Assembly: GCF_010091925.1 (NCBI RefSeq)
Contig: NZ_WVID01000013.1
Span: 186,001 to 250,000, forward strand
Source of the DNA: Nostoc sp. B(2019)
GTDB taxonomy: Bacteria > Cyanobacteriota > Cyanobacteriia > Cyanobacteriales > Nostocaceae
Direction: 5' to 3'
Length of the DNA: 64,000 bases
The translations under genes were made by a program, and so were the position numbers. Positions 31,232 through 50,461 of the stretch are shown here, one piece after another. The notes beneath the pieces were generated by a model. It worked only from the letters and a program-made list of their open reading frames with translations, had not been told where the DNA came from and did no database searches. Each line of letters starts with the position of its first letter. Position 1 is the stretch's first letter.

Positions 31232-31948
31232 ATGACAGGCGAACCCACTATTAAATTCACCTTTGCCGTTGACGATCCAGAGTTAGATGATGAGAGACGA
31301 CAAAAAATAGCGAACAAGCTGCTACGGGAAATCCGGGATTTGGATGAGGTAGAGAAGGCTGATCGCACGGAAGATTTGAACCCAAAAGCGGGAAACATGA
31401 GTGAAAGTTTAGCAGCCACATTAGGTGAATTACAAGCACAAATATATTGGTTACATGATGCTGAAAAGTTTGCAGAATTGGCATCAGCAGCAGCAACGAT
31501 ATATATGAAACTTGGTTATACTCAACAGCAAGCAGAAATAGCAGGTAACTTAATTAGTCAGGCTTATCAATTATCTGATGATGCTGTTTTAGCCCAAAAA
31601 TCGGGTAATCTTGACAAAGAAATGCAGTTTTATGATCAAGTTCAAGATAAATTAATCCAAGTAGAAACTACGTTAGTTTATCAAACCAGTATCGCCATAC
31701 ATCAAATGAAATGGTGGATGTATTTTCGTCATAGACAGAAACTACAAGTCTTGCTAAATTTATTTTTACAAAATTTTAAAGCAGTGGGATTGATTAACTT
31801 ACTTACTGCTATTAAACTTACATATTTTCTAATGGAGATAGGCAGAGTTCACAAATCGCGTGACATACAAACCACTAAACATAATGCCATACAATACTGG
31901 GCTGAATTATTGAAAATTAAACCGCCACGATACCCTTATCTTGGTTAA
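31232..31948 (+). CDS. Protein with EACC1-like N-terminus and unrecognised helical C-terminus
   Basis: 238 residues. The ATG at 31232 has GGAGG five bases upstream. Residues 1 to about 50 (KFTFAVDDPELDDERRQ, then LLREIRDLDEV) look like the start of the small effector-associated (EACC1-like) proteins that accompany caspase or trypsin effectors in conflict systems. In those proteins a glycine-rich hydrophobic part should follow. Here the sequence changes at about residue 52 to an unrelated all-helical region with an aromatic WWMYFRHRQK patch. I read it as a fusion or a rebuilt accessory protein; the domain match is from memory and needs a profile search. It converges on the M4-hydrolase gene. 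Confidence 0.5.
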   Translation: MTGEPTIKFTFAVDDPELDDERRQKIANKLLREIRDLDEVEKADRTEDLNPKAGNMSESLAATLGELQAQIYWLHDAEKFAELASAAATIYMKLGYTQQQAEIAGNLISQAYQLSDDAVLAQKSGNLDKEMQFYDQVQDKLIQVETTLVYQTSIAIHQMKWWMYFRHRQKLQVLLNLFLQNFKAVGLINLLTAIKLTYFLMEIGRVHKSRDIQTTKHNAIQYWAELLKIKPPRYPYLG

Positions 31949-32054
31949 GTTGCCTATTTTTATGTTTGGTTATCACCTTGCTATGCCAGTTCTAAAGTGT
32001 TCATTAGACTTCTTGCAAAAGTCAGGGTAAAGGTCAAGGGGTAAAGCGCAAAGT

Positions 32055-32152
32055 CTGAGCGGTTCGCGGAGCGTCTCGTAGAGAAGCCATGCCGTTGGCG
32101 CAGCCTCTCGTAGAGAAGGCTTTACGCTGCGCTATCCGTTGGCGCAGCCCAA
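32055..32152. repeat. GC-rich repeat with internal direct repeats
   Basis: Within about 100 bp there are two copies each of TCTCGTAGAGAAG (near 32074 and 32106) and GTTGGCGCAGCC (near 32094 and 32139). It fills most of the convergent gap between the EACC1-like and M4-hydrolase genes, and a C-rich tract follows at about 32200. Confidence 0.85.
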
Positions 32153-32228
32153 CCCAGGCATCAGAACTTTGCAAGAGAGGGAAAAGGAACTTATAACCCT
32201 TCCCCTTTAACCTTTACCCTTCTAACAT

Positions 32229-34859
32229 TTACGTCAGTATGTACTTAGCAAAGATTTCCTGGTTAACAGCTATGTTTTCTTTGACAAAGTAGGAATTGTG
32301 TGCACAACCTGAATCATAGCCAAACCATTGTTGTGAGCAACCTGTTGGGTTAAGTTTTAGAGTTTCCTCACTGATATCGAACATACCCCATAACGTACCG
32401 CCAACGAGATCACCCTTGGCATCAAGGTTGATCCATTTGTTTACTATAGAGGGTCGGCGACCATCTCTATTTTCTGGGCGTAAGAAGTCGCCCACCTTTC
32501 CAATTGATAAAGCACTACCTACGGTAAAAAAGTTCGAGACATATTTTTGTAAAAATTGCTCATTAGCCTCAAGTTCTCGCAATCCTTCGTAGGCAACTAC
32601 AGTACCCCAACTGTGAGAAATGATGTCAATCTGGTTGTTATTAATCAGAAGAGGCTTAACAATATCTGTGAAGCAATCGATGATTCGTTGGCGCATTCTG
32701 CTGTTCAACATATAAATGAGAAAGTCATCAATTGCCAGAGCAGCTGCATTGCTTTCTAGCCAATGAGTGTGCATTGCTGAGCTTCTGTGGAAACCACCGT
32801 TGGTATTTTCCGCTAGTTCTTGTCGCTGTCGATCTTCTAAAATAGCCATAATTTCTCGCCGCAATTGCTGTTGTTTGGTAGTATCAACTGCATTGACAGC
32901 ATTGACAAAAGTTTCGGTATTGACTAAGTGACTCCATAGCACCTCCAAGCGTGTGTCGCCGAGGTTTCCGTTCTTGAAAACTTCTCCAACGTGCGGTTGT
33001 AACGCCTGCCACCAACTATCGGAATAATGCTCCCTATGTTGGCTAATTCCGTGTACATATACCAGGTAATGGTTTCCAACTATGCGTGATGATCCATTCT
33101 CTAACAGTTGCGATCGCGTGATTGTGTCTCCAGAGAAGACACTCCCATCTAGTGGTTGTTCCTGACTAGAAATCGAAATTCCAACGGCATCGAAGGCGCG
33201 GGCGATCGCCTGCAACTTTGCATTCCGAACCTCAATCGCATTATCCCGGAACAAGGTGCGACCAACGAGTTCAATCGCTTGCCGACTGTCTATGAATAAG
33301 GAAGTTCGAGACAGATATTGGGTCAATGTTAGGTAGAAAAGCGCCGCCAGACTCTTAGAATCAAACAGATAAGCTCCCTGCCTATCCTTAGCTGTCATAA
33401 TCTTATAGGCAGCTAAGTTGTGGATTCCGCTGTTGAAGTGAACGCCGCCCCAGTCACCATCTGGGGTAATCGGCAAGTTCAGGTAATCTCGCGTATGTGC
33501 AGGTTGCCGATATTTGGTAGGGTTACTAAGATCCCGGAGTGGTATCCCCGTACCTTCAAGTTCCTCTCCCATTTCCCAGTTCCATCTGGACAGATCTGAC
33601 TCTTCAAAATTAGAAACAATAATCCCAAAAATATCTGAGTAGGATTCGTTTAAAGCCCCAGATTCTCCCGCATACTGGAGTCGTGATGTTTTATCAGTTA
33701 CTCCGTGAAATATCTCGTGGGCAACAACATCAAGCCCCACCGCATAAGCACGGAGCTGTCCACGAACTCTCCTCTGACCATACACCATTTGCGTTTCTAC
33801 CCAGGCTGCGTTCCGCCACTCCTGACCGTCTGGACTTTCATTTGCAACTATGCAGTTAATGCTGGAAATTAACGGCCCACCTCTATTATCGATACCATTG
33901 CGATGGAGAACGTCCCGCAAGAAAATTGCCACTACTGCTGCGTTGGCATGTGCACTGATCGCTCCTGGTGCCCACTCTGGTGGTTTACCCACATACTTAC
34001 CTGGTAATAACCCCGAATTCAAGTCCTGAAATTCAAAGTCGTATGTATGGACATTCAAATCAAGGTCTAGTAGTGTTCTCCTATCTCCTGTAACTAAGTA
34101 CGAAATTTTACGCAGCTTTTCAAGACCGTCTAGTGCTTCTTCAACCTGCTGATGAGAGGGAGAGACTTTATCTAGAACGGCGATACTCGGCGTTCTGGGT
34201 AGTTTAGCAACAATTTCACCATTATGTGCATCAATTAAGTAGTCCATCAACAAGGGTATATGCTTGTCTGTTTGTGTCTTCTCCCGGCTTTGTTGGCGTA
34301 CATCCTCAATTACATATATTAAGCGCCATCGCTCAACTGCTGTGTCAAAGTAGTAACACAGACGGGGCGTTGCTTCGAGTGGTTGCAATCCATATCCCGC
34401 TAGGTCACGAACCTTATTCAACGCCTCAGCTGGTGAAATCCGCGCTATGGTGTCTACATTTATCGGCTCTCCCAGTGACGAGTTGACTGCAAGTAGCTCG
34501 TTCTCATAGTCCATCTCGATAGTAATTAAGGAACCGTAAACAGGAATCTTGTTGTATGTTTGACGAAACTTTACAGTTTTTGTCTTAGTCAGGGGCAATG
34601 TCTCAGTGCCAAGGATTCTGAATTCACAAGTGGCGCCGTTCACTTCTGGAGCAGTAAACTGGGGCAGTTCCTTACTTGCGAGAGCCTGATTTAAGTGCTG
34701 ACGAGCAGCGGTTTCTGGATCAAGGGTACGCAGGCCTATAGCTTTTGTCGTGGCGAAGGCAGCTAAGGAAGGTCTTTCAGTCCGCAACGCATTAGCTACT
34801 CGATCTGAAGTTTCGTCTTCCGTGTGGAATGCAAAGGTGTGAAGTCCGTTCTTACTCAT
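32229..34859 (-). CDS. M4 (thermolysin-type) metallopeptidase fused to alpha/beta hydrolase
   Basis: 876 residues. The order is: FTP/PepSY-like propeptide (about 60-210), then an M4 catalytic domain with zinc motif HEIFH at about residues 381-385, third ligand Glu in GALNESYSDIFG, and VHFNSGIHNLAAY. From about 600 a second enzyme follows: YLVYVHGIS (oxyanion strand), nucleophile elbow SHSWGTVVAYEGL near 748, and a C-terminal His region (CAHNSYF). M4 enzymes are normally secreted, but no signal peptide is visible. AGGGG lies about eight bases before the ATG. The fusion suggests one effector that cuts both peptides and esters. It is the third gene of a large-protein cluster on this strand. Confidence 0.85.
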   Translation of the reverse strand: MSKNGLHTFAFHTEDETSDRVANALRTERPSLAAFATTKAIGLRTLDPETAARQHLNQALASKELPQFTAPEVNGATCEFRILGTETLPLTKTKTVKFRQTYNKIPVYGSLITIEMDYENELLAVNSSLGEPINVDTIARISPAEALNKVRDLAGYGLQPLEATPRLCYYFDTAVERWRLIYVIEDVRQQSREKTQTDKHIPLLMDYLIDAHNGEIVAKLPRTPSIAVLDKVSPSHQQVEEALDGLEKLRKISYLVTGDRRTLLDLDLNVHTYDFEFQDLNSGLLPGKYVGKPPEWAPGAISAHANAAVVAIFLRDVLHRNGIDNRGGPLISSINCIVANESPDGQEWRNAAWVETQMVYGQRRVRGQLRAYAVGLDVVAHEIFHGVTDKTSRLQYAGESGALNESYSDIFGIIVSNFEESDLSRWNWEMGEELEGTGIPLRDLSNPTKYRQPAHTRDYLNLPITPDGDWGGVHFNSGIHNLAAYKIMTAKDRQGAYLFDSKSLAALFYLTLTQYLSRTSLFIDSRQAIELVGRTLFRDNAIEVRNAKLQAIARAFDAVGISISSQEQPLDGSVFSGDTITRSQLLENGSSRIVGNHYLVYVHGISQHREHYSDSWWQALQPHVGEVFKNGNLGDTRLEVLWSHLVNTETFVNAVNAVDTTKQQQLRREIMAILEDRQRQELAENTNGGFHRSSAMHTHWLESNAAALAIDDFLIYMLNSRMRQRIIDCFTDIVKPLLINNNQIDIISHSWGTVVAYEGLRELEANEQFLQKYVSNFFTVGSALSIGKVGDFLRPENRDGRRPSIVNKWINLDAKGDLVGGTLWGMFDISEETLKLNPTGCSQQWFGYDSGCAHNSYFVKENIAVNQEIFAKYILT

Positions 34860-35674
34860 CTATTTTTCCCCTTTTTTAATCGTGGAGTTAACTCCTAATA
34901 TGTGAGTTACAGACATGATTTCAATCTTTGGCAAGAGCTAAAGGAAGGAGAGTTAATCTTGATTAACTGTCGAATTCTGATTCTTTAATTAATTGTTTTA
35001 ATTCAGGTAGAACGTCAAAATCTAGTATGTTAAGCCCTTTTGATAGATAATCTAGTTGATCTGGTTTACATTACTTAATTGGATAAAGTTGAGCTTATAA
35101 TATCTCAAACTTTAATCACTTGTGTTATTGCTGAGACTAGAGATCTGTAGAAAACTACAGTGCCAAAGTTAATTAGATTGTCTATGTATTGTGAAAGCTA
35201 ACTTTGATATAGCGGTTCTCACCTCAGTGAGGTACACAGAAGAAGTAATTAACCACAGATAAACACCGAGAAATTCGTACTAAGCAGATTAGGAAACGCT
35301 ATGACTAAAGGAGAAACTAGCAATAAGTTTCTCAGTAAATAGACCCTCTCTATTAAGCTTGGGTATTCTGGAGGATAATAAGTGGAGTGTAAAAATGTTC
35401 TGATAATTTGAAGGTTATATAAATATTTTGGCAATGAACGCAATAGTTTAAAATTCTTAAAGCAAATGAGTTCTTTTAGCTATTGACCAAGCTGGTTGGT
35501 ATACAAGTAATGATTTAAACTTACCATTTGGCATTGAGCTAATATCTTTACCTAAATTTTGGAGTAGCCGCATAGCTAGTTATGATTTATACAGGATTTT
35601 TCTCCTGAATAAGTTTTTGCAACACAACCCCTTTACGCGCTAATACCATTTCACGAAATACCTGATACAAATGA
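34860..35674. other. 815-bp AT-rich gap inside the large-protein cluster
   Basis: This separates the caspase-WD40 and M4-hydrolase genes, so the M4 gene probably has its own promoter. It contains the 28-bp element at 35208-35235. A 64-codon frame at 35249-35443 is not supported. A C-rich tract lies at about 35690-35720 at the left gene's end. Confidence 0.5.
35208..35235. repeat. 28-bp element, exact inverted copy of 20766-20793
   Basis: It begins TATAGCGGTTCTC and contains ACCTCAGTGAGGT. It is identical over 28 bp to the reverse complement of 20766-20793, and distantly related to the ends of the 90-bp element at 44641-44730. Confidence 0.9.
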
Positions 35675-38600
35675 TTAGTCTCTAATCCTTTCCCCCTGCC
35701 CCCTGCTCCCTGCCCCTCTGCTGCCTATTTGTATCGATTTTAAAGTGAAATGGTATAAAGCGGGGTATCTGTGGCACAGATGGCGATCGCTTTCTTCCAA
35801 CTTAGAGTTATTTTGCAAATAGTCCTGCACTTCATCGCAAGCTTGTTTCATCAACTTATCGAATGATTGAATCTGCCACAACTTAGCGATGCTGTCATCT
35901 CCAGCGCTAGCCAGCATCTTACCATCCTTGCTAAAACTGACGTTCCTGACTTCGCCTTGATGTGCTTTCCAGGCAGCAAACTGCTCCCTATTCTGCCAGT
36001 TCCACAACTGCACGTTGCCTTTTTGATCACTACTGACAATCATTTTGCCATCGGGGCTGAACGCTACTGAATTCACCGCCGCCCCAAAATTTACCGCCGC
36101 CACAAATTCCTGGAATGGCTTACCCTGCAAGTTCCATAAGCGAATAGTGCCATCATCTCCAGCGCTAACTAGTCGCTTGCCATCGGGACTGAATGCCACA
36201 CTAGAGACAGGGCCTAGATGACCTGGAATGTCTGTGATTAACTGCTGTTTTTGCCAGTTCCACATACGGATAATACCGTCATTTCCGGCGCTAGCCAGCA
36301 GCTTGCTATCTGGGCTAAAACTGACTTTGCAGAAGTGCTTTTCACGCGGGAATTTTACCATAGAGAACTTTGCTAACTGCCGCCGCTTTTGCCAGTCCCA
36401 CACAAGAACAATACCGTTCTCTCCCACACTAGCTACTAGTTTGCTATCCGGGCTAAAACTGACATCGCATATATGCTGTGGATAACCGAGGGATTCTGCC
36501 ATTGATAAGGTTGTCAACTGTTGACCATACAAGTTCCATAAGCGGACAGTTCTATCATCTCCAGCACTAGCCATTAACTGACCATCCGGGCTGAAACTGA
36601 CACTGTGGATTCGTTCACCTTGATGTGCTGTCCATCCTAGCAACTGTTGACCCTGTAAGTTCCATACGCGGATGATGCCATCATCTCCCCCAGTCGTAAC
36701 TCGTTGACCATCCGGGCTAAAATTAATGCTGAGAACTCGATCCTTATGACCTAATAATTCTGTCACCTGCTGACCATGCAAGTTCCACACGCGGACAGTT
36801 TTATCATCTCCGGCGCTAGTTAGTAGTTGACCATCTCGGCTAAAACTGACGCTTCTAACTGGGCCTTGATGCCCAGCAAATTTGTCCAACTCCTTACCCT
36901 GCAAATTCCATAAACGAACAGTGCCATCTCCGGCTGCACTAGCTACTTGTTGACCATCTGGGCTAAATTGTACACTCCAGATTCGGCCTTGATGCCCTGT
37001 AAAAGGTTTTCCCAATTGCTTACCCTGCAAGTTCCACACGCGAACAGTTCTGTCCTGTCCACCACTGACTACTAACTGACCATCTTGGCTAAAGCTGACA
37101 CTGCTAACAGGTTGTTGATGTCCTTTGCATTGTGCCAATTGTTGACCCTGCAAGTTCCACAGGCGGATAGTACTGTTTTTTCCGGCTGTAGCTAGCATCT
37201 GCCCATTGCGGCTAAAACTGACGCTGTTAACCGAGTTTTGATTTGCTTTCCATTCTCGCAACTGCTGACCTTGTAAGTTCCATAAGCGGATTGTATCGTC
37301 ATCGCCGCCGCTAGCGATTAGATGACTATCTGGGCTAAAACGGATGCTCCTAACGCGACTTTGATGCCCTTTCAATTCTGCTAACAGTTGACCCTGTAAG
37401 TTCCATAAGCGAACAATGCCGTCCTCTCCGGCTGTAGCCAGTAGCCGTCCATCCGGGCTAAAACTGAGGCTTCTGACCAGATTTGTATTCCACACAGCCT
37501 GCTCCTGACCCTGTAAGTTCCACAAGCGAACAATACCGTCCTCTCCAGCACTTGCCAGTAATTGCCCATTTGGGCTAAAACTGCTTCTGACCGTACCTTG
37601 ATGCCCTTCCAAGCGGTTGCGTTCTTTGACTGTATAAACTGCCTTTTGCAGTGTTCCTTGCACTTGAGTTTGTAGCTGTTCTGGCTTGAATAACTGCACT
37701 AGAGGTTGATTGAGAAGTGTTCCGGCTCGTAAACTGGCGATCGCCCCATCTAACACTGGTGTCCCCAAGTCTACTTCGGCATTTTCTCTAAAAGTACTAG
37801 CTTGACCTATTTGTGCGTTTCTCAAATTAAACAGAGCGTAAAGAGTTAATCCACTTAACCCCAAGATGACTGCGATCGCAATGCGCGATCGCCAAGCAAT
37901 ATTCTTGCGTTTTTGCACAATGCTACGCTGTACAAACTCTGCTTCTAACTGGTTGAACCAATTTTTATTGAACTTAATTTTTTCATTCAAGACATCGAGA
38001 TAGGGATTAGCATTCCAAAGAAACTGTACCTGTTTTTCTCGGCGCTGCTCTTGCTGACTTTGTGTTTGTTGCCACAGCCGCAACAGTTGAGCGTTGATTT
38101 TGTCAAATGAGTTTTCCACAACATAGCAACTGCTATCCAACCAATCCAGAACAGGTTCTACCTTGGCTTGCCAACCTGATGGTCTTTCCCTACTTTTAAC
38201 GTTTTTCCACTCAAAAGCAGCTGGTGTAAGTTGCCGTTGGAGAATTAAACTTTCCGCCTCATCTTGTTTCCACGCTAGCAGCTTTTGCCATCCTCGCACT
38301 AAAGCATCATGGGCAGGCTCTACATAAGGTTGACCCTCAGTATCTTGTCCTTGAACTAGCAGACGTGCTATCGAAAAGCGCCGAATTACCTCTTTTACCC
38401 GTCGGTTTTCTGGTTCTGGATACTCCATCTCAGATAAAGGTACTCGTCTACGCGCCAACTCTCCCCCACCCACAGCCACCATTCGCAGCATGACATGACG
38501 GATAGTTTGCTCATAGGCTTGATTGTTGTTGACTAACTCCTCATATTCATAGTCTGCTCTTTGGGTAAGACTTTGGATCACTCCACCCAGTTGTTCATAA

Positions 38601-40219
38601 TCTGCTTGCGTAATCGCTCGGTTATTCCTTTTACCTTGGCGGACAGCCTTTAAATACTTGAGGTAGAGTTCACTTAAAGTAAAAGAAAGTAGCGGTAATG
38701 CTCCTGGCATCTGTGCTACTTCATCTATTAACGTATCTACCAGATTGTGCGGCTCAAAATACATCACCCTTTTGGATGCTGGTTCTTCGATGCAGGCGCG
38801 TAATTCCTCCCGCGTCATGGCTGGCACGATAAATCTCGCACTCTGCCAATATGCTTGTAAAGCAGAATTTCGCAACTGAGGTTCAAAATCTGAGCGTAAC
38901 GTCAGTACGAGGCGGAAATTATCTGAATATTGAGCTACTGCTTGCGCCAATAAACTGAGGAATTTCTGCCGTTCTTGCTCGTCTTGGCAGAGGGTGATGA
39001 GTTCTTCTATCTGGTCAATGACTAATAGCAACTTTGACTGCGGATAAAGCTGACTCCAAGTTGCTAAACTGGCGGTTAGGCTTTCCCGCGATAGTATCTT
39101 ATTTAAAGCCTTCACCGGAGACTCTCCAGGACGCATAGTCGCCAGAATTTGCCACTGCTGCTGACTTCGCAAGTATGGTATTAATCCCGCTTTTACCAAG
39201 CTCGATTTTCCGGTTCCAGAAGCCCCAAGCACCACAGTTAACGACTGATTGCTGACGAATTCGTATAACTTTTCAGTCAGGGCTTGTCTACCGAAAAACA
39301 GGTGACTGTGTTCTTCCTCAAAGGATTCCAAGCCACGATAGGGGTTTTTTGATTCATCGAGTGGTGGTGCTGGAGGTAAATTTAAGATATGCCCAGGAGT
39401 CAGAAAGATATATTCACCTTTATCATGTTTCTTCAGGGGCCAAATACTAGGGGTTTGCCGGAGATGATGCCCAACAGTTGTCGGTTCAATGCGATCGCGC
39501 AAATAAAGGTAGAGTTTGGTAGCGGTAATTACCCCGTCTCCTGAAGGTTGACCATAAGCAACCGGAGGATGTAAATCAACTCTACCTGTGATTGCTTCCA
39601 GCAAAGCGGCAGCAAAGGGTGAATGATCCCCAATTTGACCACGGCAATCTGTATCAAGTGCATAAGCATCTAAAGCTTTTTGGTCATAGGCAGCAGAGGT
39701 AATCACCTGCCATGCTGGATCAGAGATAAAGCGATCGTACCGTTCTTGGTGAATCACCTCTGGCACAGTTAACAATTCTCTGGTACTAGACCAGCGAAAG
39801 GCTCCAGCAAAACAGCAATCAAGGAATGCTAGGAAATGACGGCAAGGCAATTTCTCCAAGGCTTCCTGCAACTGAGTCATCGGTAGGTAGGTTTGAATCT
39901 CTCCGAGGATGGCATCTTGGGGAATTAAATAACCCTTTGGCCCGTCATCAGCATTCAGGGCAATTCCATGACCAGCAAAGTAAAACAGCAGACGGTCATC
40001 TGAATGTACTTGTTCTGGCAGAGTTTTCCAAAGTAATTTATTCAGATTGGAGAGATTTGCCACCTCATCCAAACACAACCATACTTGATATCCATGCTGT
40101 TCACGCAAAACCTGTACTAATTGTTTGGCATCATTAACAGCATTTTGGAGTGGAGAAATTCCGTTGCCGTAATTATTAATTCCAATCACAAGTGCCAGGT
40201 TGTGCGAAAACTCAGACAT
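35675..40219 (-). CDS. Caspase - STAND NTPase - transmembrane - WD40 protein
   Basis: 1514 residues. Residues 1 to about 250 are a caspase (C14) domain: IGINNYG, catalytic His in FYFAGHG and Cys in LDCCFAG. A novel-STAND NTPase follows, entered by NPYRGLESFEEE and FFGRQ, with Walker A GASGTGKSS at about 331-339 and Walker B-like LLLVIDQIEEL. One membrane helix lies at about 773-793. Then come 14 WD40 repeats (about 870-1455), enough for two seven-bladed propellers. The layout is that of a regulated cell-death or defence switch: WD40 senses, the STAND oligomerises, the caspase cleaves. The ATG at 40219 is chosen over a TTG ten codons earlier. The last residues come from a C-rich repeat tract. 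It follows the other caspase gene by 30 bp. Confidence 0.93.
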   Translation of the reverse strand: MSEFSHNLALVIGINNYGNGISPLQNAVNDAKQLVQVLREQHGYQVWLCLDEVANLSNLNKLLWKTLPEQVHSDDRLLFYFAGHGIALNADDGPKGYLIPQDAILGEIQTYLPMTQLQEALEKLPCRHFLAFLDCCFAGAFRWSSTRELLTVPEVIHQERYDRFISDPAWQVITSAAYDQKALDAYALDTDCRGQIGDHSPFAAALLEAITGRVDLHPPVAYGQPSGDGVITATKLYLYLRDRIEPTTVGHHLRQTPSIWPLKKHDKGEYIFLTPGHILNLPPAPPLDESKNPYRGLESFEEEHSHLFFGRQALTEKLYEFVSNQSLTVVLGASGTGKSSLVKAGLIPYLRSQQQWQILATMRPGESPVKALNKILSRESLTASLATWSQLYPQSKLLLVIDQIEELITLCQDEQERQKFLSLLAQAVAQYSDNFRLVLTLRSDFEPQLRNSALQAYWQSARFIVPAMTREELRACIEEPASKRVMYFEPHNLVDTLIDEVAQMPGALPLLSFTLSELYLKYLKAVRQGKRNNRAITQADYEQLGGVIQSLTQRADYEYEELVNNNQAYEQTIRHVMLRMVAVGGGELARRRVPLSEMEYPEPENRRVKEVIRRFSIARLLVQGQDTEGQPYVEPAHDALVRGWQKLLAWKQDEAESLILQRQLTPAAFEWKNVKSRERPSGWQAKVEPVLDWLDSSCYVVENSFDKINAQLLRLWQQTQSQQEQRREKQVQFLWNANPYLDVLNEKIKFNKNWFNQLEAEFVQRSIVQKRKNIAWRSRIAIAVILGLSGLTLYALFNLRNAQIGQASTFRENAEVDLGTPVLDGAIASLRAGTLLNQPLVQLFKPEQLQTQVQGTLQKAVYTVKERNRLEGHQGTVRSSFSPNGQLLASAGEDGIVRLWNLQGQEQAVWNTNLVRSLSFSPDGRLLATAGEDGIVRLWNLQGQLLAELKGHQSRVRSIRFSPDSHLIASGGDDDTIRLWNLQGQQLREWKANQNSVNSVSFSRNGQMLATAGKNSTIRLWNLQGQQLAQCKGHQQPVSSVSFSQDGQLVVSGGQDRTVRVWNLQGKQLGKPFTGHQGRIWSVQFSPDGQQVASAAGDGTVRLWNLQGKELDKFAGHQGPVRSVSFSRDGQLLTSAGDDKTVRVWNLHGQQVTELLGHKDRVLSINFSPDGQRVTTGGDDGIIRVWNLQGQQLLGWTAHQGERIHSVSFSPDGQLMASAGDDRTVRLWNLYGQQLTTLSMAESLGYPQHICDVSFSPDSKLVASVGENGIVLVWDWQKRRQLAKFSMVKFPREKHFCKVSFSPDSKLLASAGNDGIIRMWNWQKQQLITDIPGHLGPVSSVAFSPDGKRLVSAGDDGTIRLWNLQGKPFQEFVAAVNFGAAVNSVAFSPDGKMIVSSDQKGNVQLWNWQNREQFAAWKAHQGEVRNVSFSKDGKMLASAGDDSIAKLWQIQSFDKLMKQACDEVQDYLQNNSKLEESDRHLCHRYPALYHFTLKSIQIGSRGAGSRGQGERIRD

Positions 40220-40249
40220 GGTATTAGGCCCTTTTTTTGCACTAGTCAA

Positions 40250-43200
40250 TCACATTTGTAGAGACTGATTAAGTTGATTTTTATTTTTGGGTTCTATGTA
40301 ATTGGATTGTTGATATCGCCACAATCCAATCATCACTATTGCTGCTAATACACCAATCAACACACCAATTAACCATTGAGGCCTTATGTTCTGAATTGAA
40401 CGACTATTAGTAGTGATATGAGGAGTGCTGACAGTAGGGATATCGGCTTGTTCTTGAGGTGAACTCACTGTTTTATTAAGAGGCAACTTGTCTACAACAG
40501 CCATATCAATAGAGGAGGGTAAAGGTGTGTGAGAGAGGTTTTCTCGACCCAAGTGAGTGGTCAAATAATTCTCCGACTTGACAGGACTACTTATCGCTAC
40601 CTCTAAATGATGGCGCTGAACGCACAAGATACAAGTATTTGCTAATGCTGCTAACCCTTCGGGATAAGTGAAATAAACAAAATGATCACAGCCAACTTCT
40701 TGAACTTGGGGTGGAGGCTGACGTTCTTGACTAACACTTTTGATACTGTGTACAGTTGCAGCAAGGTCGTTTGGTTGACCAAAAAAGGGTAGGCTCACTG
40801 TCTTATAAAACAGCTTTTGCATTAATCGCTCTAAAGGACTAGACTGCTGATTAGCTTCTGGTTGGAGAGCCGCGGGAATAATTGATGTATTACCAGCAAT
40901 GATTGTGTAAGGAATTCCAGGATCAGGGCTGGCTGCCAAGTTTTGCAAGAATTGAGAGCCAGGACGCATTTCATCTAAGGAAACATCGATAGTTTTAACT
41001 ACCTCGACAGATTTGTTCATCGCCTTGAGCAACATTCCCAAAACTGGTATGGGCCAAGTAATTGTTGACAGACCATTAAGCCCAATACTCAAGGTAGTTA
41101 GCGCCCAATCTTGGATAGTAGACCAAGGAAACCCAGCATTTGGTGTACCCAGCATAATTAAGTTTTGCACGATGCGATCGCCTGCTTCTCTTTCAATAAA
41201 CCAACGAGAAACCAAGCCTCCCATTGAATGAGCGACAATGTGCAAGGCTTTACCGTGATTTTCTCTTAAACCGACTGCTGCGAGTTTTTGCTTGAGGAGT
41301 TTGGCATTCTCTTCAATGGAAGTGTTGAGGCTTTCATAGTCAAAGGTGAGAACTAGATCATATAAGTCAGTAAGTTTTGCCCTTTGTATACTTCCTAACA
41401 TACTTTGAGTATCGCCAATGATGCCGTGGATGTAGAGCACAATCCGCTCTGCTTGGGCAACCCGTTGTTTAACTTGCTCGATTTCACCGATATAATTAAC
41501 TACACCATCTGGACTAACATCTGCTACAGCTAAAATTGGGTAATCAAACTGCAACCCTAGATTTTGAGACACTATTTTTTGAAAGAAAATTCGGATAGAT
41601 CCCCCAAGGCTACGTTTTCCTGCACTCACTGGTTCTGTTAACCGCTCCAAGACTATTTCTGTTGTGCCATCCGCACTACTGTGAGCGCGTCCTAAAGGTA
41701 GGAAAAACTCGCCATCATAACTGATTGGTAAGAGATACTCGTCTGGTTCTAAGGGTGAATCAACAACTAGCTTTAAAGGATGATTGGGCGTGACAACAGA
41801 TGGATCTTGTATCTGATTCAACTCCAACACGCTTAAACCTGGATCAGTCCCCCGACTAGCCGTGAATTGAAAGGGTCTAATTCCCGAATTATCTGCCCGC
41901 AGAAGAGGCGGTAGCAGATGATTACCTAGATCCCTAGTGGATTGGGTGACTGTTGTCAGCCGAACATTAGCATTTAAATTGTGATGTGATTGCAACCTCA
42001 CACCAGATCCCAGAGAAACACTTTCTTGTCCCCTGGGAATCGGCGTGGCGTTTTGTGGGTGGACAGTTGTGAGCATGATTTGACTAGTTACCCAGTCGTC
42101 GCAAACATCTTCTTCTGGTTTAGCTCTGAGGTCGCGTAAGGGAATCCTGTTCATCAAACGGTTCAGTGTCCCTTGACCTCGATGAGGTGTGGGTGTGGAA
42201 CGAGAAGGTAAATCAAGCTCATCTTGTGTCAGCAAGGTAGCGTCAAATTCCGCAGTGCTGACAATTAATTTGAGCATATCTTTAACTTCAGTAATTCCCT
42301 GTTCCCGCCATAGTTTTTCGGGAACTTGGGCATAAATTGCATGACCGCCTAAAGCCCAGGCTTCATCTCCTGTCTGTCCACTTGGTTGTAGCCAAATTCC
42401 TCCTGTCTCAAACAAATCTGCACTCACTGCAAAACGATCTGTTAAATTCAGGAGGGCGCAATACACTGGTTCATTAGCAGTATTTTTTAACTTAATTTTG
42501 AAATTAGGTTGCTTCCATTTACCATTTTCTTGTTGATATTCTAAGCGCATCTGGACATCTTGCCGCTCTTGCCCATCTTGATAAATCATTATTTGCACTG
42601 CGTCGGCTGGAATTCTGCTGCTAGCAGGACTAGAAAGTTCGTAAATATTTGTCCAACGGGCAATATGTTCTAATCGTTGTATTGCCTGCCAAGCAGTGGT
42701 CTTTGTGTAACCTTGAATTTGAGCGACTAAAGGACGGTCATCAGCTGGTCGTGTAATCAGATATTCATCATTACGAGCTAGCAACTTAAACTCAGCAATT
42801 TCAGGTGCAGTAACTTCCCGCAGGTATAAGGACTGTTGATTCTGAGTCCCAGCCGTCAGTAGTGCGGTGCGTGCTAATTCTACTCCTATATCCTCACCAG
42901 CAATCAATATTCTTTTAGGTGGTGAAGGCAGGCTAGTAACAAGTGCTTTGAAAGTCATCTCAGTATTTAAGTCTCTGATACCGCTAATTTGAACTTTACT
43001 CAAATGCGGCATAACTTCCAGTACTTGAGCTTCACCTATTGCCCTTGATAGTTGATGTAGCTGTTCCAAGGGGGTATCAAAAGGAAATAACGCCAGTAAA
43101 GTTGTCTCATCCCCACAAGGTTGGGGAATTCCATGAACAGCGCCACCATCAATTACCCATGTATGGTGTTTGTGATAACTAATTGTAAAGTAGGGAGTAT

Positions 43201-44074
43201 GTGAGGCGATCGCTCCTCCTAAAAATGGTTGGTTTAAATCATCCTGAACTGTTGCTTCTATTTGGGGAGACTGCGCTGCAACTTTGCTCCGAACTAAGGC
43301 ATTGGTGCGTTTGAATAAATCTCTATAACTGAGGCTACCATTGGCTTTTGTCAATGTATCGAGTAAAAAGTAAGAGAATGCCCCCCGACTTTGCCCATCT
43401 GCAATGTACTCTTTAGCTTCCTCGTAATCTTGGCAAGCCGCAAAAAAGATATGTTTGCCTTGCGGTAAAGTCCAACCAGCAGCATTTTTGACCAAACTGC
43501 GGGAATTTGAGAGTTGTTTGGCTTCTGTCACAGAGAAAATGAAGCTGTCTAAAGGTCGCTGGCGGGGATCAATGGGTGCTTTACGAACAGCCGTTTCTAG
43601 TTTTAAATCACCGCGAATGCCTGAACCTGAGTGGCAACAGTCCATAATAATAGCGATATGAGGGTTTTTGTCGGCTACCTCAGCAATTAGCTTCCCTAAT
43701 TCTTTATCTGCTAAATCCCAACCCCCTGGATTACGACTGTCGTAACAAACGAGTGTTTCATCTAGTCGATCTGGTTCTAAAGCCCAAAACTCTTCAGGTG
43801 TGGCTTGTTGACTACCATGGCCTGAATAGTAAAAAAAAGCCACATCTTCACTACTAGCTTGACACAAATGTTGACGGAAACCGTCAATAATTGCCTGACG
43901 GGTGGCATCTTGGTTTAACAATATGCGTAAATGTAGCTGGCATCCGTTGGGAGAAATTCGCCCTAACAAATACTCTTTAACAGCCAAAATATCATTGATA
44001 CAGCCTTTTAAAGAAGGCACAGAACTAAAATACTCATCAATCCCAACCAGCAATGCATAGATATTACGAGTCAT
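40250..44074 (-). CDS. Caspase - alpha/beta hydrolase (lipase-like) - membrane anchor protein
   Basis: 1274 residues. An N-terminal caspase (C14) domain has LLVGIDEY, catalytic H86 in YYSGHGSQ and C147 in MDCCHSG. The middle (about 270-870) contains unassigned beta-rich segments. From about 880 an alpha/beta hydrolase begins with VLYIHGIIGD, with nucleophile Ser near residue 949 in VAHSMGGLVSRW and LGTPNAG, as in PGAP1-like lipases. One C-terminal membrane helix lies at about 1234-1252. It is upstream of and probably co-transcribed with the caspase-STAND-WD40 gene (30 bp apart). Protease and lipase activities tethered to a membrane suggest an effector of cell death or defence; that is inference. 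Confidence 0.9.
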   Translation of the reverse strand: MTRNIYALLVGIDEYFSSVPSLKGCINDILAVKEYLLGRISPNGCQLHLRILLNQDATRQAIIDGFRQHLCQASSEDVAFFYYSGHGSQQATPEEFWALEPDRLDETLVCYDSRNPGGWDLADKELGKLIAEVADKNPHIAIIMDCCHSGSGIRGDLKLETAVRKAPIDPRQRPLDSFIFSVTEAKQLSNSRSLVKNAAGWTLPQGKHIFFAACQDYEEAKEYIADGQSRGAFSYFLLDTLTKANGSLSYRDLFKRTNALVRSKVAAQSPQIEATVQDDLNQPFLGGAIASHTPYFTISYHKHHTWVIDGGAVHGIPQPCGDETTLLALFPFDTPLEQLHQLSRAIGEAQVLEVMPHLSKVQISGIRDLNTEMTFKALVTSLPSPPKRILIAGEDIGVELARTALLTAGTQNQQSLYLREVTAPEIAEFKLLARNDEYLITRPADDRPLVAQIQGYTKTTAWQAIQRLEHIARWTNIYELSSPASSRIPADAVQIMIYQDGQERQDVQMRLEYQQENGKWKQPNFKIKLKNTANEPVYCALLNLTDRFAVSADLFETGGIWLQPSGQTGDEAWALGGHAIYAQVPEKLWREQGITEVKDMLKLIVSTAEFDATLLTQDELDLPSRSTPTPHRGQGTLNRLMNRIPLRDLRAKPEEDVCDDWVTSQIMLTTVHPQNATPIPRGQESVSLGSGVRLQSHHNLNANVRLTTVTQSTRDLGNHLLPPLLRADNSGIRPFQFTASRGTDPGLSVLELNQIQDPSVVTPNHPLKLVVDSPLEPDEYLLPISYDGEFFLPLGRAHSSADGTTEIVLERLTEPVSAGKRSLGGSIRIFFQKIVSQNLGLQFDYPILAVADVSPDGVVNYIGEIEQVKQRVAQAERIVLYIHGIIGDTQSMLGSIQRAKLTDLYDLVLTFDYESLNTSIEENAKLLKQKLAAVGLRENHGKALHIVAHSMGGLVSRWFIEREAGDRIVQNLIMLGTPNAGFPWSTIQDWALTTLSIGLNGLSTITWPIPVLGMLLKAMNKSVEVVKTIDVSLDEMRPGSQFLQNLAASPDPGIPYTIIAGNTSIIPAALQPEANQQSSPLERLMQKLFYKTVSLPFFGQPNDLAATVHSIKSVSQERQPPPQVQEVGCDHFVYFTYPEGLAALANTCILCVQRHHLEVAISSPVKSENYLTTHLGRENLSHTPLPSSIDMAVVDKLPLNKTVSSPQEQADIPTVSTPHITTNSRSIQNIRPQWLIGVLIGVLAAIVMIGLWRYQQSNYIEPKNKNQLNQSLQM

Positions 44075-45026: not shown

Positions 45027-47042
45027 ATGAAAAAATTTACTGTAAATACAACTTTAATGGGCAAAGTTACAGATATTAAAGCAGAAAAAGATGCTTTTAT
45101 CTTGAAATGCCGTAGTGATGATGAGATAGAGGTTTTTGTGGGTAATGAAACCAAATTTAGATTTCTGAGAAATTTGGATGGCATCGAGCGCGATCGCGTA
45201 CCCAATCCTGATAACTTTAATCATGATTCTCCCACAAATTTAGTCAAAAAATACATCCAGCCTGATAGCTTGGTTGTCCTACAAGGTGTTTATCAAGAAA
45301 ATAATGGTAATTGCCATTATGATGCGCGTATTGTGAACCTATTACATTCATATAGAGGGCAAGATGAATTATTGTTTGAGCAGACACATTGGTGGATTAC
45401 ACAAATTGCCCGCCTAGCAGATAGTTGGTTAGGGTATCTATTTCCCAATAAACAAACCTATCAAATTGATGATTTTGCTCTCTACCGAACTAACTTAAAT
45501 ATCATTGGTTTACCAACTGATGACAATATACAGGAATGTGCCACACTTTCTCGGCTAATTTATGGTCTTTCCTCAGCTTACTTACTGACTGGTTCTGAAA
45601 GCTATGTTTCAGCGGCCCGTGCTGGAGTTCAATACCAACGTGAAACTTTTCGCAGTTTAACATCTGATGGCAAACATTGTTTTTGGGCTTTTGGCAAGCG
45701 CAAGACTGAGTACAGTTATCAGTTGTATATCAACTCTTTAAATGAAGATGACAGAGATACAATCCCACTTTATGAGCAAATTTATGCTTTAGCTGGATTA
45801 GCTCAGTATTATCGGATCACCTTAGATTGGGAAGTGCTTGATGATATTAAGCGGACTGTTCGCGTCTTTAATGAGTTCTTTACTGATCCGGAATCGGAAT
45901 ATGGTAAGCACGCATACGGAGATTATTTTTCCCACCTAGATTATGTCACCTTAAACTGGGATAATCCGGCTCTTGCTAACAACCAAGCTAGGAAAAATTG
46001 GAATTCCATTGGGGATCACATACCTGCCTATTTAATAAACGTGATTTTGGCATTAGAACCTTTGCCATTAACTGATCATGGACACGAAGAAATCAGGAAA
46101 TTTTTAGAAACTTGCAAGAAGATTCTCAAAACAACATCCACAATTATTGTTGAGAAGTTTCCCGATCCAGATCCCAATATTCCATTTGTCAATGAGCGAT
46201 TTTTTCGGGATTGGAAGCCAGACCATAGTTGGCGGTGGCAACAAAACCGTGCTGTTGTCGGACACAATTTAAAGATTGCCTGGAATCTGACTCGTGTTGC
46301 CAATTATTATTACTACTTAGCTGCCCAATCTGCTGCTGAGAACGAGCAAGAAGCAAAAGAATCACAACAGTTAGCCGATAGGTTGATGAAACTGGCAGAT
46401 CAATTAGGCATCAAAATAGCAGAGATTGGTATCGATCTATTTAGAGGAGGAATTTTCGATACTTTAGAACGTAATCCCCAAAATGGGATGCCTTTGGAAT
46501 TTCCTTGGTTCAACACTAAGGACTTTTGGCAGCAGGAACAAGCTTTGTTAGCCTACCTGATTCTTTATGGTTGCAGTAACGAAAATCATCACCAAAAGCA
46601 AGAGTATTTGCGATTAGCACGAGAAACAGCCGCATTTTGGAATCTCTTTTTTCTTGACCAAGACAATAAAGGTATTTTCTTCCGAGTTAGTGAAAGTGGA
46701 GATGCAATGACTGTCGGGGAGTATGGACAAAAAGGGGGGCATTCAATTTCTGGATACCATGCTTTTGAACTCAATTATTTAGCTCATATCTATACCAGTA
46801 GCTATGTGACAAAAGAACCCTTCTGTTTGTATTTCAAACCTGACAAGCATTGTCGCCAGCGATCGCTCAATTTCTTACCCGATTTCTTTAGACCCAATAC
46901 CCTGGAAGTCAGCAGAATCAGCATTAATGGTAGCGATCGCACCTCAATCGACCCTGATAATTTCCAAATTGAACTAGGAGAAAAAGAATTTCAACTTGGT
47001 TCAGAAGCAGAAATCATTGTACAATTTACACCCAAAACTTAG
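45027..47042 (+). CDS. (alpha/alpha)6-barrel protein, N-acylglucosamine 2-epimerase-like
   Basis: 671 residues. A small beta N-terminal domain (about 1-110) precedes a long helical barrel. Repeated helix pairs with W, H and aromatic residues (QNRAVVGHNLKIAWNL; KDFWQQEQALLAYL near 498; GGHSISGYHAFEL) resemble the AGE superfamily of sugar epimerases. The C-terminal part (about 600-671) looks beta-rich. Substrate unknown; a sugar or glycan is likely. AGGA lies six bases before the ATG. It is the first gene of a plus-strand train whose next start is 10 bp after its stop. Confidence 0.65.
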   Translation: MKKFTVNTTLMGKVTDIKAEKDAFILKCRSDDEIEVFVGNETKFRFLRNLDGIERDRVPNPDNFNHDSPTNLVKKYIQPDSLVVLQGVYQENNGNCHYDARIVNLLHSYRGQDELLFEQTHWWITQIARLADSWLGYLFPNKQTYQIDDFALYRTNLNIIGLPTDDNIQECATLSRLIYGLSSAYLLTGSESYVSAARAGVQYQRETFRSLTSDGKHCFWAFGKRKTEYSYQLYINSLNEDDRDTIPLYEQIYALAGLAQYYRITLDWEVLDDIKRTVRVFNEFFTDPESEYGKHAYGDYFSHLDYVTLNWDNPALANNQARKNWNSIGDHIPAYLINVILALEPLPLTDHGHEEIRKFLETCKKILKTTSTIIVEKFPDPDPNIPFVNERFFRDWKPDHSWRWQQNRAVVGHNLKIAWNLTRVANYYYYLAAQSAAENEQEAKESQQLADRLMKLADQLGIKIAEIGIDLFRGGIFDTLERNPQNGMPLEFPWFNTKDFWQQEQALLAYLILYGCSNENHHQKQEYLRLARETAAFWNLFFLDQDNKGIFFRVSESGDAMTVGEYGQKGGHSISGYHAFELNYLAHIYTSSYVTKEPFCLYFKPDKHCRQRSLNFLPDFFRPNTLEVSRISINGSDRTSIDPDNFQIELGEKEFQLGSEAEIIVQFTPKT

Positions 47043-47052
47043 GCAACCAATT

Positions 47053-47715
47053 ATGGCAACCCCAATGCTAGAAGGAAAGAAAATTGCCATTCTTGTAGAG
47101 AGTGAATTTATTCCAGAGGAAATTGCTGCCTATCAGCAACGCTTTGCCGAACTTGGGGCGACTGTGCATTTAATGTCTCGGTTGTGGGGAAATCAAAGTC
47201 TGCGTTTTGTTAGTGATGTTGATGCAGTGGGTAAATCCTTGGAATACCTAGACGTAAGCATTGACTTTCAGAATGTAGATATTAATGATTATGCGGCTGT
47301 GATTGTCTCTGCTGGCTACACCAGTGTACGTTTGCGTTACTTTGAGCCTCCAGAAGGTTGTCCACTCAGTCCAGAACAGTCTCGTACTGCGCCAGCAGTC
47401 CAATTCTTTGCCCAGGCGATGGCAAATCCCAAAATTGTGAAAGGAGCTATTTGTCATGGATTGTGGCTGTTGACACCGATACCAGAACTACTCCGGGGGC
47501 GAAAAGTAATCTGTCACGAAGTCACCCTTGCAGATATTGCTAATGCTGGTGCTGTTTATGTCCCGTCTGCATCTGGAATTGTTGTTGATGGTGACTTAGT
47601 TACAGGGCGAGCAGGTCATGATGTAGGTGTATTTATCGATGCGATCGCACAACTAATTATCCAACAAGATGCACAACCAGGACAAAAAGGGGAATTGGTA
47701 GAAGCTAAATCCTGA
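47053..47715 (+). CDS. DJ-1/PfpI family protein (first copy)
   Basis: 220 residues. The flavodoxin-like fold begins KKIAILVESEF (conserved Glu16), and the nucleophile elbow has C134 in KGAICHGLWLL. These are the DJ-1/PfpI active-site residues. Known activities in the family include protein deglycase/glyoxalase, chaperone, hydratase and peptidase. The ATG at 47053, ten bases after the previous stop, is used; the frame is open 19 codons upstream inside the previous gene. A second homologue (49795) lies in the same train, about 2.7 kb on. Confidence 0.82.
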   Translation: MATPMLEGKKIAILVESEFIPEEIAAYQQRFAELGATVHLMSRLWGNQSLRFVSDVDAVGKSLEYLDVSIDFQNVDINDYAAVIVSAGYTSVRLRYFEPPEGCPLSPEQSRTAPAVQFFAQAMANPKIVKGAICHGLWLLTPIPELLRGRKVICHEVTLADIANAGAVYVPSASGIVVDGDLVTGRAGHDVGVFIDAIAQLIIQQDAQPGQKGELVEAKS

Positions 47716-47731
47716 CTTAAGGAGAGAAGCA

Positions 47732-48637
47732 ATGAGAACAACTAATTATGCACAGCGAGATCAAGCCGCACAAGTAGTTTTTTACGTCCCACTGTGGAAG
47801 AGAAAGGGAATTTCTTTAGAGTTGTTCGATGATTATTGGCGAAACGTTCACGGCCCAGTCTGCGCCCGCTTACCTGGTCAGTACCAATATTGGCAGTTTC
47901 ATGTAGCTCACAATGAAGGGGGTATTTGGCCCACCATAAAAGGTATAGATTACAACACTCCTGAAGAGGATCAGTTTGATGGGATTGCTGAATTAACCTT
48001 TAAAACCGCCGCAGACCGTCAGACATGGTTTCAGGCTTCTACCATTCTCATGGATGATGAGCATAACTTATTTCGTCAGGCGATCGGTTATAACACTAAC
48101 CCCGGTAACTCTATCACCTATGTTGATGGTATTGAAAACGCCACTCCTAACGGTTTCGTTAATGTAGAAAAGTTTCATGTCATGCTCAAGAAAGCTGATG
48201 ACGTAAGTGTAGAAGATTTCCGCCAATATCTGCAAGAAAGCTTTGCTTCAGAGGTGCTCAAGAGTGACTTATTGCTGAAGTTACGAATACATTTGTTTGA
48301 AGAAGTAGATAATTCTCGCCCCGATGCAGCTGGTGTATCTCATTCCGAACAACCAGAAAAGAACTATCAAGCAGCTTTGGAAATGGCCTTTTCTAATCGT
48401 CTAGAAATGGAAAAATTCTTTGCTTCCGAAATATACACCACAGCCACAAAATCCCACGCAAAATACGTCAGGCAAATCAGCACATTTCCAGAGAGAACCG
48501 CTTTTACATTTGTCTATGGTGGTCAGATGACACTTGCGGGTCAGCGCAGTTCTACGGTTGCTGATTTAATTACGAGAATCGGCGCAAAAAATCAACTGCA
48601 AGATGACATTTCTACTTTGATGCTTGGTAAACGCTAA
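47732..48637 (+). CDS. EthD-domain protein (dimeric alpha/beta barrel)
   Basis: 301 residues. The segment FDDYWRNVHGPVCARLPG, then YWQFH, is the EthD signature. A second, weaker repeat of the fold begins near residue 145 (VEKFHVMLKKADDVSVEDF). EthD-like proteins are cofactor-free oxygenases, dehydratases or accessory proteins in polyketide and ether degradation. AGGAGAG lies six bases before the ATG; the gene follows the DJ-1 gene by 16 bp, so they are one operon. Confidence 0.8.
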   Translation: MRTTNYAQRDQAAQVVFYVPLWKRKGISLELFDDYWRNVHGPVCARLPGQYQYWQFHVAHNEGGIWPTIKGIDYNTPEEDQFDGIAELTFKTAADRQTWFQASTILMDDEHNLFRQAIGYNTNPGNSITYVDGIENATPNGFVNVEKFHVMLKKADDVSVEDFRQYLQESFASEVLKSDLLLKLRIHLFEEVDNSRPDAAGVSHSEQPEKNYQAALEMAFSNRLEMEKFFASEIYTTATKSHAKYVRQISTFPERTAFTFVYGGQMTLAGQRSSTVADLITRIGAKNQLQDDISTLMLGKR

Positions 48638-48668
48638 TCAAGTTAATGGTTTTTTATAGGGCAAAATC

Positions 48669-49028
48669 GTGTCTAAAAATTCTCTTAAAAAAAATGCCGT
48701 CCTTGATGATCAACAACTGCAAGCAAATCTAAAAGCAATCAATCCCAAGTTTGGGGATTTTGTAATTCGTGTTGCTGGTGAAGCTTGGGGACTACCATTA
48801 ATTGACCAAAAAACCAAAGCTTTAATCACTATTGCTATCGATGTAGTAAATCAGGATCATGTTGGCCCAGGTAATCCCTTTGGCGCTCATGTTCACATGG
48901 CTATGCAGCACGGTGCTACCCGCGAAGAAATAGAAGAATTACTTTTATTCTTATGCGTCTATGCAGGATTTAACAAGGCGGCTGGTTGCTTTGGTACTTT
49001 GAACCAAATTTTAGATGGTTCTAAATAA
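48669..49028 (+). CDS. Carboxymuconolactone decarboxylase-like protein
   Basis: 119 residues from a GTG start. The pattern GAHVHMAMQHGATREEIEEL followed by a hydrophobic YAGFNKA helix is the CMD/AhpD-like fold. The CxxC of AhpD peroxidases is absent, so it is closer to decarboxylase-type members or a non-redox homologue. Catalytic function not shown. It sits 31 bp after the EthD gene. Confidence 0.78.
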   Translation: MSKNSLKKNAVLDDQQLQANLKAINPKFGDFVIRVAGEAWGLPLIDQKTKALITIAIDVVNQDHVGPGNPFGAHVHMAMQHGATREEIEELLLFLCVYAGFNKAAGCFGTLNQILDGSK

Positions 49029-49202
49029 CAAACTCATCAAGAAGAATCAACTCTAACATATCAAATCATGTCTCTTATGAACCACGAAAATAATAATATT
49101 AAATACGATTTTGCCAATTGCAAGAGTATTTGATTAGACATAATTAATTTATGGACTACCGATAGCAAATTCTTGTAATTGCAAGTAAATAGGAAAGGGC
49201 TT

Positions 49203-49775: not shown

Positions 49776-49794
49776 ACAATCAACGGAGGATAAT

Positions 49795-50424: not shown

Positions 50425-50461
50425 ATTTTGTAGTTTTGAATGCTCGACAAGGGATATCAAT

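Follow-up and report, generated by a model that had tools for sequence, protein, structure and literature searches.

Metacaspase-NACHT-WD40 proteins have been described in cyanobacteria and other organisms (PMC3501461, PMC2853523), and the cyanobacterial caspase-WD40 proteins had been catalogued by 2010, with no target named in the available text of that catalogue, which also records WD40- or GUN4-containing metacaspases as flanking neighbours of some alpha metacaspases (PMC2853523). The nSTAND1 NTPases, in turn, are named among conflict-system predictions (PMC8195603). The stretch of DNA analysed here, referred to as the window, comprises 64,000 nucleotides of Nostoc sp. B(2019) (assembly GCF_010091925.1, 7.4 Mb in 109 contigs; contig NZ_WVID01000013.1, positions 186,001 to 250,000). 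It encodes a protein of the same architecture, here with an nSTAND1 NTPase, which we denote CS, and, 30 bp away and likewise on the minus strand, a protein denoted CH that combines a caspase with a predicted lipase-type alpha/beta hydrolase. These two genes appear to constitute a conserved unit in which, we tentatively propose, the caspase of CH cuts at a conserved arginine, R647, of its own linker.

In the canu (caspase-nuclease) anti-phage loci, a MALT1-like caspase followed by an Ig-like domain turns on a linked hydrolytic effector, and the predicted sites lie in disordered insertions that are required for defence (PMC12799240). The caspase of CH also matches MALT1 in Foldseek searches; however, the effector of canu, a nuclease of metallo-beta-lactamase type that has conserved Gly sites, is encoded by its own gene downstream (PMC12799240), whereas CH carries a lipase-type hydrolase in the same chain, has a conserved Arg and is partnered by a caspase-STAND protein. 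No metallo-beta-lactamase-type nuclease domain was detected in CH, in CS (among the best 25 of 75 matching families), in three neighbouring open reading frames (ORFs) or in further neighbours. The consulted portions of the metacaspase literature name a GDSL-lipase-amidase-caspase protein of Chitinophaga and describe no such caspase-alpha/beta-hydrolase fusion, CH-CS fusion or cleavage site (PMC3501461, PMC2853523); nor did searched titles, abstract openings and text passages of the open-access literature describe the CH/CS pair or the R647 site.

The EACC1-caspase system resembles the pair in comprising two genes, with a caspase whose variable C-terminal parts include STAND NTPases (PMC7159879), and differs in that no EACC1 gene lies within the CH/CS unit. 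Membership in this system was rejected: the window holds only a chimeric N-terminal piece of EACC1, with an M4 peptidase gene between that piece and CS and about 8 kb separating it from CH. Assignment to the EACC1-associated caspase type failed as well, CS scoring 58.5 and CH 39.6 bits on the NF047832 model (cut-off 140). A pairing of caspases with alpha/beta hydrolases is predicted for VMAP systems (PMC7159879). The VMAP/MoxR-vWA ternary system was discarded, there being no VMAP-C match in the source genome; none of the 57 CH places discussed below has a VMAP-C match nearby on its contig (listings compared by eye), and one CH elsewhere (L154) adjoins a VMAP gene. AVAST (Avs) was rejected too, CS scoring 27 bits on the Avs4 model against a cut-off of 1500, with no match to another Avs model at E 0.01. 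Finally, an analogy has been drawn (PMC7159879) with the Apaf-1/caspase-9 apoptosome, which the pair would resemble in its WD40 sensor, its STAND-class NTPase oligomer and the activation of a caspase by proximity. It differs in that one caspase is part of the receptor chain and the other is joined to a lipase, and in that cleavage is predicted after Arg rather than Asp.

A conserved two-gene unit

CH and CS were each searched in 120 related genomes, the source genome included; the CH counts are lower bounds, only the best five candidates having been scored in most genomes. At 32 of the 57 CH places a CS caspase lies within 6 kb, in 31 cases on the same strand, with CS following CH in 29 of these 31; conversely, 38 of 67 CS places have a CH within the same distance. 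The linkage count omits CH places below 505 bits, which are caspase-only matches and fragments (pieces in G001, G041 and G052 among them), and two rows of G037 within one open frame count as one place. CH is present in 31 of 33 CS-bearing genomes versus 7 of 87 CS-free ones (38 of 120 in all; Fisher p 1e-19, phylogeny not corrected). For 68 CH loci, all genes lying within 6 kb were also clustered with no partner preset: 41 loci have a member of a STAND/WD40 family close by (of the 61 ORFs in this family, 49 share the strand of CH), against 6 for the family ranking second. Two loci carry natural fusions of CH and CS in single ORFs (L088, 2924-11845, 2973 residues; L093, 7237-16410, 3057 residues); that of L088, confirmed also by Pfam, ends in a Peripla_BP_6 (periplasmic-binding-protein) domain in place of WD40 repeats. 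The CH and CS distances correlate in a mirror-tree comparison (r 0.877 over 36 pairs, with L099, L102 and the two fusions left out; none of 5000 permutations as high). Four duplicate contigs (L132, L135, L141 and L146, of L081, L095, L103 and L091, respectively) were dropped from this comparison, from the neighbour clustering, and from the R647 alignment and CH tree discussed below. The pair recurs in Methylomonas fluvii, with CH split into two separate open pieces, and in Pedobacter, with the CS-like gene two genes upstream.

Thus, linkage, natural fusions and co-divergence support the conclusion that CH and CS are a conserved two-gene unit, one of the caspase/STAND kind that is predicted for conflict systems, and the co-occurrence of CH with the caspase-STAND gene, suggested as a check in a preliminary description of the window, is borne out. 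The cell-death or anti-phage role proposed there is a putative one for the pair. In some genomes, other genes lie between CH and CS, namely a phage-type lysozyme with a YkuD domain (L145:10034-11311), a DUF1400 alpha/beta hydrolase (L078:6384-8102) and a DUF2252 protein (L076:6395-7732); these are possibly extra effectors.

The preliminary description correctly recognized three long minus-strand genes, all open, with the two caspase genes 30 bp apart, and its layout of CH (caspase, alpha/beta hydrolase and helix) agrees with Pfam, Foldseek and hydropathy. The CH ORF, open along its full length in the window, matches Peptidase_C14 with 81 bits and DUF7379 with 59 bits (cut-off 33), and its catalytic motifs are GHGS at 85, DCCHSG at 145 and AHSMGG at 948. 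The dyad H86 and C147, a His-Cys pair of the C14 p20 type, is kept in all 44 aligned CH proteins; in a wider set of 74, C25, D28 and H86 are each found in 72, with two gaps each, and C147 likewise in 72, the other two proteins showing a Phe and a gap, respectively. From an alignment, we take C25 and D28 to be the probable equivalents of the acidic-pocket residues of metacaspases. The hydrolase keeps S950 in 42 and H1131 in 43 of the 44 proteins. An AlphaFold model of residues 1-1150 reached a predicted local distance difference test score (pLDDT) of 81 and a predicted template modelling score of 0.71. The nearest solved structures of the caspase are metacaspases, and Foldseek also returns the MALT1 paracaspase, the MALT1 caspase-Ig3 matches spanning 434-471 columns, yet with a root-mean-square deviation of 14-16. 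For the hydrolase, the Foldseek matches are bacterial lipases, including a membrane phospholipase A. By its fold and its Ser-His pair this domain is a lipase-type alpha/beta hydrolase, with lipase activity predicted.

The CS ORF is also open throughout, and the layout previously given for it, caspase, STAND NTPase, helix and 14 WD40 repeats, is upheld by PADLOC, Pfam and hydropathy. Its start was taken at ATG (end 40219), the mechanical ORF beginning at a TTG (40249), and the transmembrane scan covered joined segments of the protein that lack 10 residues and the 54 at its end. The caspase is detected by the PADLOC 'caspase' model (51.6 bits); Peptidase_C14 is not among the best 25 of 75 Pfam matches of CS, and five unfused relatives of CS score 33-69 bits on it. 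CS has the C14 His-Cys dyad and, beside the nSTAND1 profile match, the P-loop and Walker B; H84, C136, K338 (Walker) and D402 are kept in all 26 aligned CS proteins. In the pocket, D30 is present and the Cys is replaced by Ala or Pro in all 26. In each of 29 WD40-tailed relatives, similarity is lower in the WD40 tail than in the STAND part (median 35% versus 59%). A sensor would be expected to show this pattern, although a shift in repeat register depresses the tail figure too.

The linker arginine and a putative caspase relay

The linker between the first and second middle regions of CH is variable and gapped. R647 is Arg in 67 of 68 aligned CH proteins (the exception, L081, has Pro) and in all six homologues fetched after the residue had been noticed (plasmids of Anabaena, Rhizobium, Deinococcus, two Nostoc and Embleya), that is, in 73 of 74. 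Among 87 columns with at least 95% conservation, its surroundings are the least conserved, those of W661, 14 residues on, coming second. The context is [VIT]xxR in 61 and xx[ST]R in 47 of the 74 proteins; MALT1 substrates preferably have a hydrophobic P4 residue and, at P2, Ser or Pro ahead of Arg. In the AlphaFold model R647 lies just after a helix, in an interdomain stretch of lower confidence. The C14 enzymes characterized by 2017, true caspases excepted, are reported to cleave after Arg or Lys, and autoprocessing has been shown for an orthocaspase (PMC5756287). We propose Arg-specific cleavage at R647, gated by CS, because the CH caspase has pocket residues of the metacaspase type; the retention of C25 and D28 in CH, together with Ala or Pro in place of the Cys in CS, fits CH as the main cutter. 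In CS itself, no comparable basic residue was found, the basic column with the least conserved surroundings in its first 880 residues being only 54% Lys.

These observations are compatible with a single system in which the CS receptor activates CH and a cut at R647 frees or unlocks the lipase half, a reading to which we assign a chance just short of even. The WD40 tail of CS, replaced by other tails elsewhere, would sense a trigger, phage or some other stress, and the nSTAND1 NTPase would oligomerise CS and so cluster its caspase domains. The assembly would then switch on the metacaspase-type caspase of CH, the putative executioner, which, acting in cis or in trans, may cut at R647 in the linker that joins the protease half to the lipase half. 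The lipase half, probably tethered to the membrane by the C-terminal helix in this CH and in about a third of CH proteins, would be freed or unlocked and might attack membrane lipids, so that the cell is killed or stalled. The more elaborate scenario, a bacterial immune or death pathway not described before that works as a two-caspase relay in which an apoptosome-like receptor triggers an Arg-specific, self-cutting caspase that releases its own lipase, the effector having moved between phyla on plasmids and been re-paired with other sensor-bearing caspase or CHAT proteins, is possible in our view but falls noticeably below an even chance.

Several observations weigh against this mechanism. S950 is replaced in two and H1131 in one of the 44 aligned proteins, and the C-terminal hydrophobic stretch is present in 23 of the 69 CH ORFs scanned (the four duplicate contigs included) and hence is not universal. 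At least 11 hydrolase-less CH proteins keep R647 (L098, L100, L101, L104, L105, L106, L137, L150, L226, L227 and L228), so the site would not serve solely to free the lipase and could be structural or required for maturation of the caspase part. W661, invariant among the 74 proteins amid similarly variable surroundings, would suit a structural role, and the placement of R647 in the most distant rows depends on a gapped alignment. Furthermore, cleavage at Gly is presumed for the MALT1-like caspase of canu, a related kind of enzyme (PMC12799240), so that the Arg specificity of CH should not be taken for granted. Lastly, CS is missing from the 6-kb surroundings of 25 CH places out of 57, at least one of which lies at a contig end, and several CH genes have other neighbours.

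Partners of CH and the slot that holds the pair

CH proteins of the same layout are encoded in a Chloroflexi metagenome-assembled genome, in Arthrobacter and in Bacteroidota, as well as on plasmids of Rhizobium and Deinococcus; two CH plasmids are typed as conjugative. Some CH loci that lack CS lie near other protease genes, encoding CHAT-nSTAND5 (L110), CHAT (L152) and caspase-subtilase (L161) proteins; the VMAP gene of L154 gives a borderline CHAT match, at L225 a caspase gene lies two genes away, and on an Anabaena plasmid CH is near an annotated CHAT-TPR gene. However, 8 of 10 scanned neighbours of CS-less loci (the set that includes L154 and L225) are neither caspase nor CHAT, so a caspase or CHAT neighbour where CS is missing is sometimes seen, as a tendency and not a rule. 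Upstream of CH at four CS-less loci lies a conserved gene for a protein of 342 residues, which matches nothing in Pfam. On the Deinococcus aetherius plasmid (L225, 1590-10537), CH and the second caspase gene are accompanied by genes for a C1 peptidase and an I42-family protease inhibitor. On a conjugative plasmid of Nostoc ATCC 53789 (L227), a short CH gene forms a row with independent caspase and WD40 genes; integrase, TniQ and ATP-binding genes lie close by, an association known from Tn7-like elements.

Hydrolase-less CH genes adjoin CS at L098, L100, L101, L104, L105, L106 and L150. Those of L098, L101, L104, L105, L106, L137 and L150 are ORFs of 664-682 residues with nearly the same end point, at about four places on the CH tree, where five rows near contig ends are without a CS label. 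On this tree the presence or absence of the hydrolase requires at least 10 changes, broken copies counted.

Table 1. Coordinates of the pair and of the features around it, in window positions.
Feature	Position	Strand	Details
CH: caspase (residues 1-285), two middle beta-rich regions, lipase-type alpha/beta hydrolase (about residues 865-1150), C-terminal helix	40250-44074	-	1274 residues
CH caspase domain	43220-44074	-	H86 codon 43817-43819, C147 codon 43634-43636; pocket residues C25, D28
R647 codon, proposed orthocaspase cleavage site, in the linker between protease half and lipase half	42134-42136	-	
CH hydrolase domain (DUF7379, lipase type)	40625-41482	-	S950 codon 41225-41227, H1131 codon 40682-40684
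CH C-terminal hydrophobic helix, residues 1234-1252	40319-40375	-	hydropathy 2.54 over 19 residues
CS: caspase, nSTAND1 NTPase, one hydrophobic helix, 14 WD40	35675-40219	-	1514 residues
CS nSTAND1 NTPase domain	38192-39343	-	Pfam PF20703, 354 bits, cut-off 27.1
CS single hydrophobic helix	37826-37882	-	hydropathy 1.99; position converted from concatenated pieces
CS WD40 sensor region, approximate limits	35819-37603	-	14 WD40 stretches by Pfam
M4 peptidase (FTP propeptide and M4) with C-terminal probable alpha/beta hydrolase	32229-34859	-	876 residues; neighbour, outside the CH/CS unit
Chimeric ORF: EACC1 N-terminal remnant and unrelated protein of about 180 residues	31232-31948	+	outside the CH/CS unit
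Variable slot, about 23 kb	31448-54374		absent at the same place in three same-genus genomes (L121, L122, L126)

The third long gene, described initially as a fusion of an M4 peptidase with an alpha/beta hydrolase, was confirmed in its first part, with M4 and FTP recognized by Pfam and a HEIFH motif at 381. Likewise, of the catalytic motifs said to be intact in every domain, those of CH, CS and M4 are present; VHG and SHSWG motifs occur in the C-terminal third of the protein, which gives only sub-threshold profile matches (LCAT, E 0.027; DUF676, 0.033), its PDB profile matches being headed by an aminopeptidase (E 0.25), followed by PhaZ7 (0.6), and its predicted structure, from 6 sequences, reaches a pLDDT of only 31. 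Thus, an alpha/beta hydrolase assignment of this third is weakly supported. The fusion is full length in 2 of the 120 genomes, the source genome and G037. In 386 genomes of the phylum, the C-terminal part has 9 matches at E 0.001, 5 of them close: these two genomes and G058, G137 and G153, where it is a separate ORF of about 345 residues; G040 holds another separate copy. No CH or CS was found near the relatives of this part in three 20-kb neighbourhoods (L111, L112, L113), and G042 holds CH, CS and an upstream gene of 671 residues without the M4 fusion. At L213 (1495-3777), a stand-alone relative adjoins a gene for a subtilisin-type peptidase, as read from the sequence, so this domain may keep company with peptidases.

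The EACC1-like N-terminus reported next door is real over its first part and belongs to a remnant. The chimeric ORF matches the EACC1 proteins of relatives mostly over its first 71-74 residues or so (to 102 and 125, with lower identity, in two genomes), with 75-77% identity over the first 72-73 residues in G001, G003 and G004; residues 55-238 match a different protein, a copy of which, at 85%, lies on another contig of the same genome (C67). The flanks of the variable slot (left of 30804, right of 54375) are colinear in these three same-genus genomes, with 83-98% protein identity, and there the slot holds an EACC1 gene and a caspase gene. Caspases next to EACC1 in G001, G029 and G044 pass the NF047832 model with 164.2-166.5 bits; among the slot relatives only G001 was scanned with this model, the caspases of G003 and G004 being identified by BLAST. 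Given that the window ORF keeps only the first part of EACC1, it is most plausibly a relic of what occupied the slot earlier. Elsewhere in the slot, on the plus strand (46996-54201), are a DJ-1/PfpI-type ORF and genes for an EthD-domain protein, an alpha-amylase and an S51-type peptidase, along with a second DJ-1-like ORF (49795) and a carboxymuconolactone-decarboxylase-like ORF (48669), both named from sequence. At 1447-3552 of the window (minus strand), a Laminin-G-like domain is fused to a patatin phospholipase that matches PADLOC phospholipase effector models with up to 212 bits.

Alternative readings and significance

The notion, put forward in the preliminary description, that the entire cluster of EACC1-like, M4-hydrolase, CS and CH genes is a single death or anti-phage system has in its favour that all four genes fall within 13 kb in this genome. 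It is nonetheless highly improbable and was rejected on linkage: the relatives of the M4 C-terminal part lie away from CH and CS in L111, L112 and L113, the full-length fusion is rare, G042 has the pair and the 671-residue gene without the fusion, and the EACC1 part is left over from a locus equipped with its own caspase in G001, G003 and G004. Conserved linkage to CH/CS was found for neither the M4 gene nor the EACC1-like gene, an outcome that the description itself had named as speaking against its proposal. Developmental or nutritional protein turnover by the pair, for example in stress-linked lysis, with no role in defence, would have a precedent in TeMC9, a WD40-tailed orthocaspase, taken here as a Trichodesmium gene, that is reported to be upregulated in iron-depleted medium (PMC5756287). 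The patchy spread of the pair, with no CS match at E 1e-40 in the same-genus genomes G001-G004, its location in a variable slot and the occurrence of CH on plasmids, two of them typed as conjugative, make this reading improbable.

The remaining alternatives concern what CH does and for whom. CH and CS could cooperate with proteolysis of host or invader proteins by CH as the key output, the hydrolase being an accessory and R647 either structural or a site at which the caspase half matures. The seven loci where a hydrolase-less CH with its R647 still stands beside CS, and the repeated changes in hydrolase presence on the tree, are in line with such an output; the conservation of the hydrolase Ser and His in nearly all hydrolase-bearing CH, across phyla, runs counter to it, and we consider it rather unlikely. 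Alternatively, CH might be a general effector for many sensor-protease cores (caspase-STAND, CHAT-STAND, CHAT-VMAP, caspase-subtilase), with CS merely the commonest partner, a situation that can be likened to the nuclease-protease pairs common to several defence systems. The CHAT- and caspase-type genes near CH at L110, L152, L161, L154, L225 and on the Anabaena plasmid are what this possibility predicts, whereas the 8 of 10 scanned neighbours of other kinds and the CS pairing, far commoner than any other, are not. It is compatible with activation of CH by CS followed by cleavage at R647, and we regard it, tentatively, as somewhat short of evenly probable.

Under the preferred reading, in which CS activates CH and the cut at R647 frees or unlocks the lipase half, CH offers a concrete substrate, cut site and effector to be tested for the caspase-WD40 proteins. 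If this reading is true, the protease-activated effectors of bacterial immunity would extend from nucleases to lipases.

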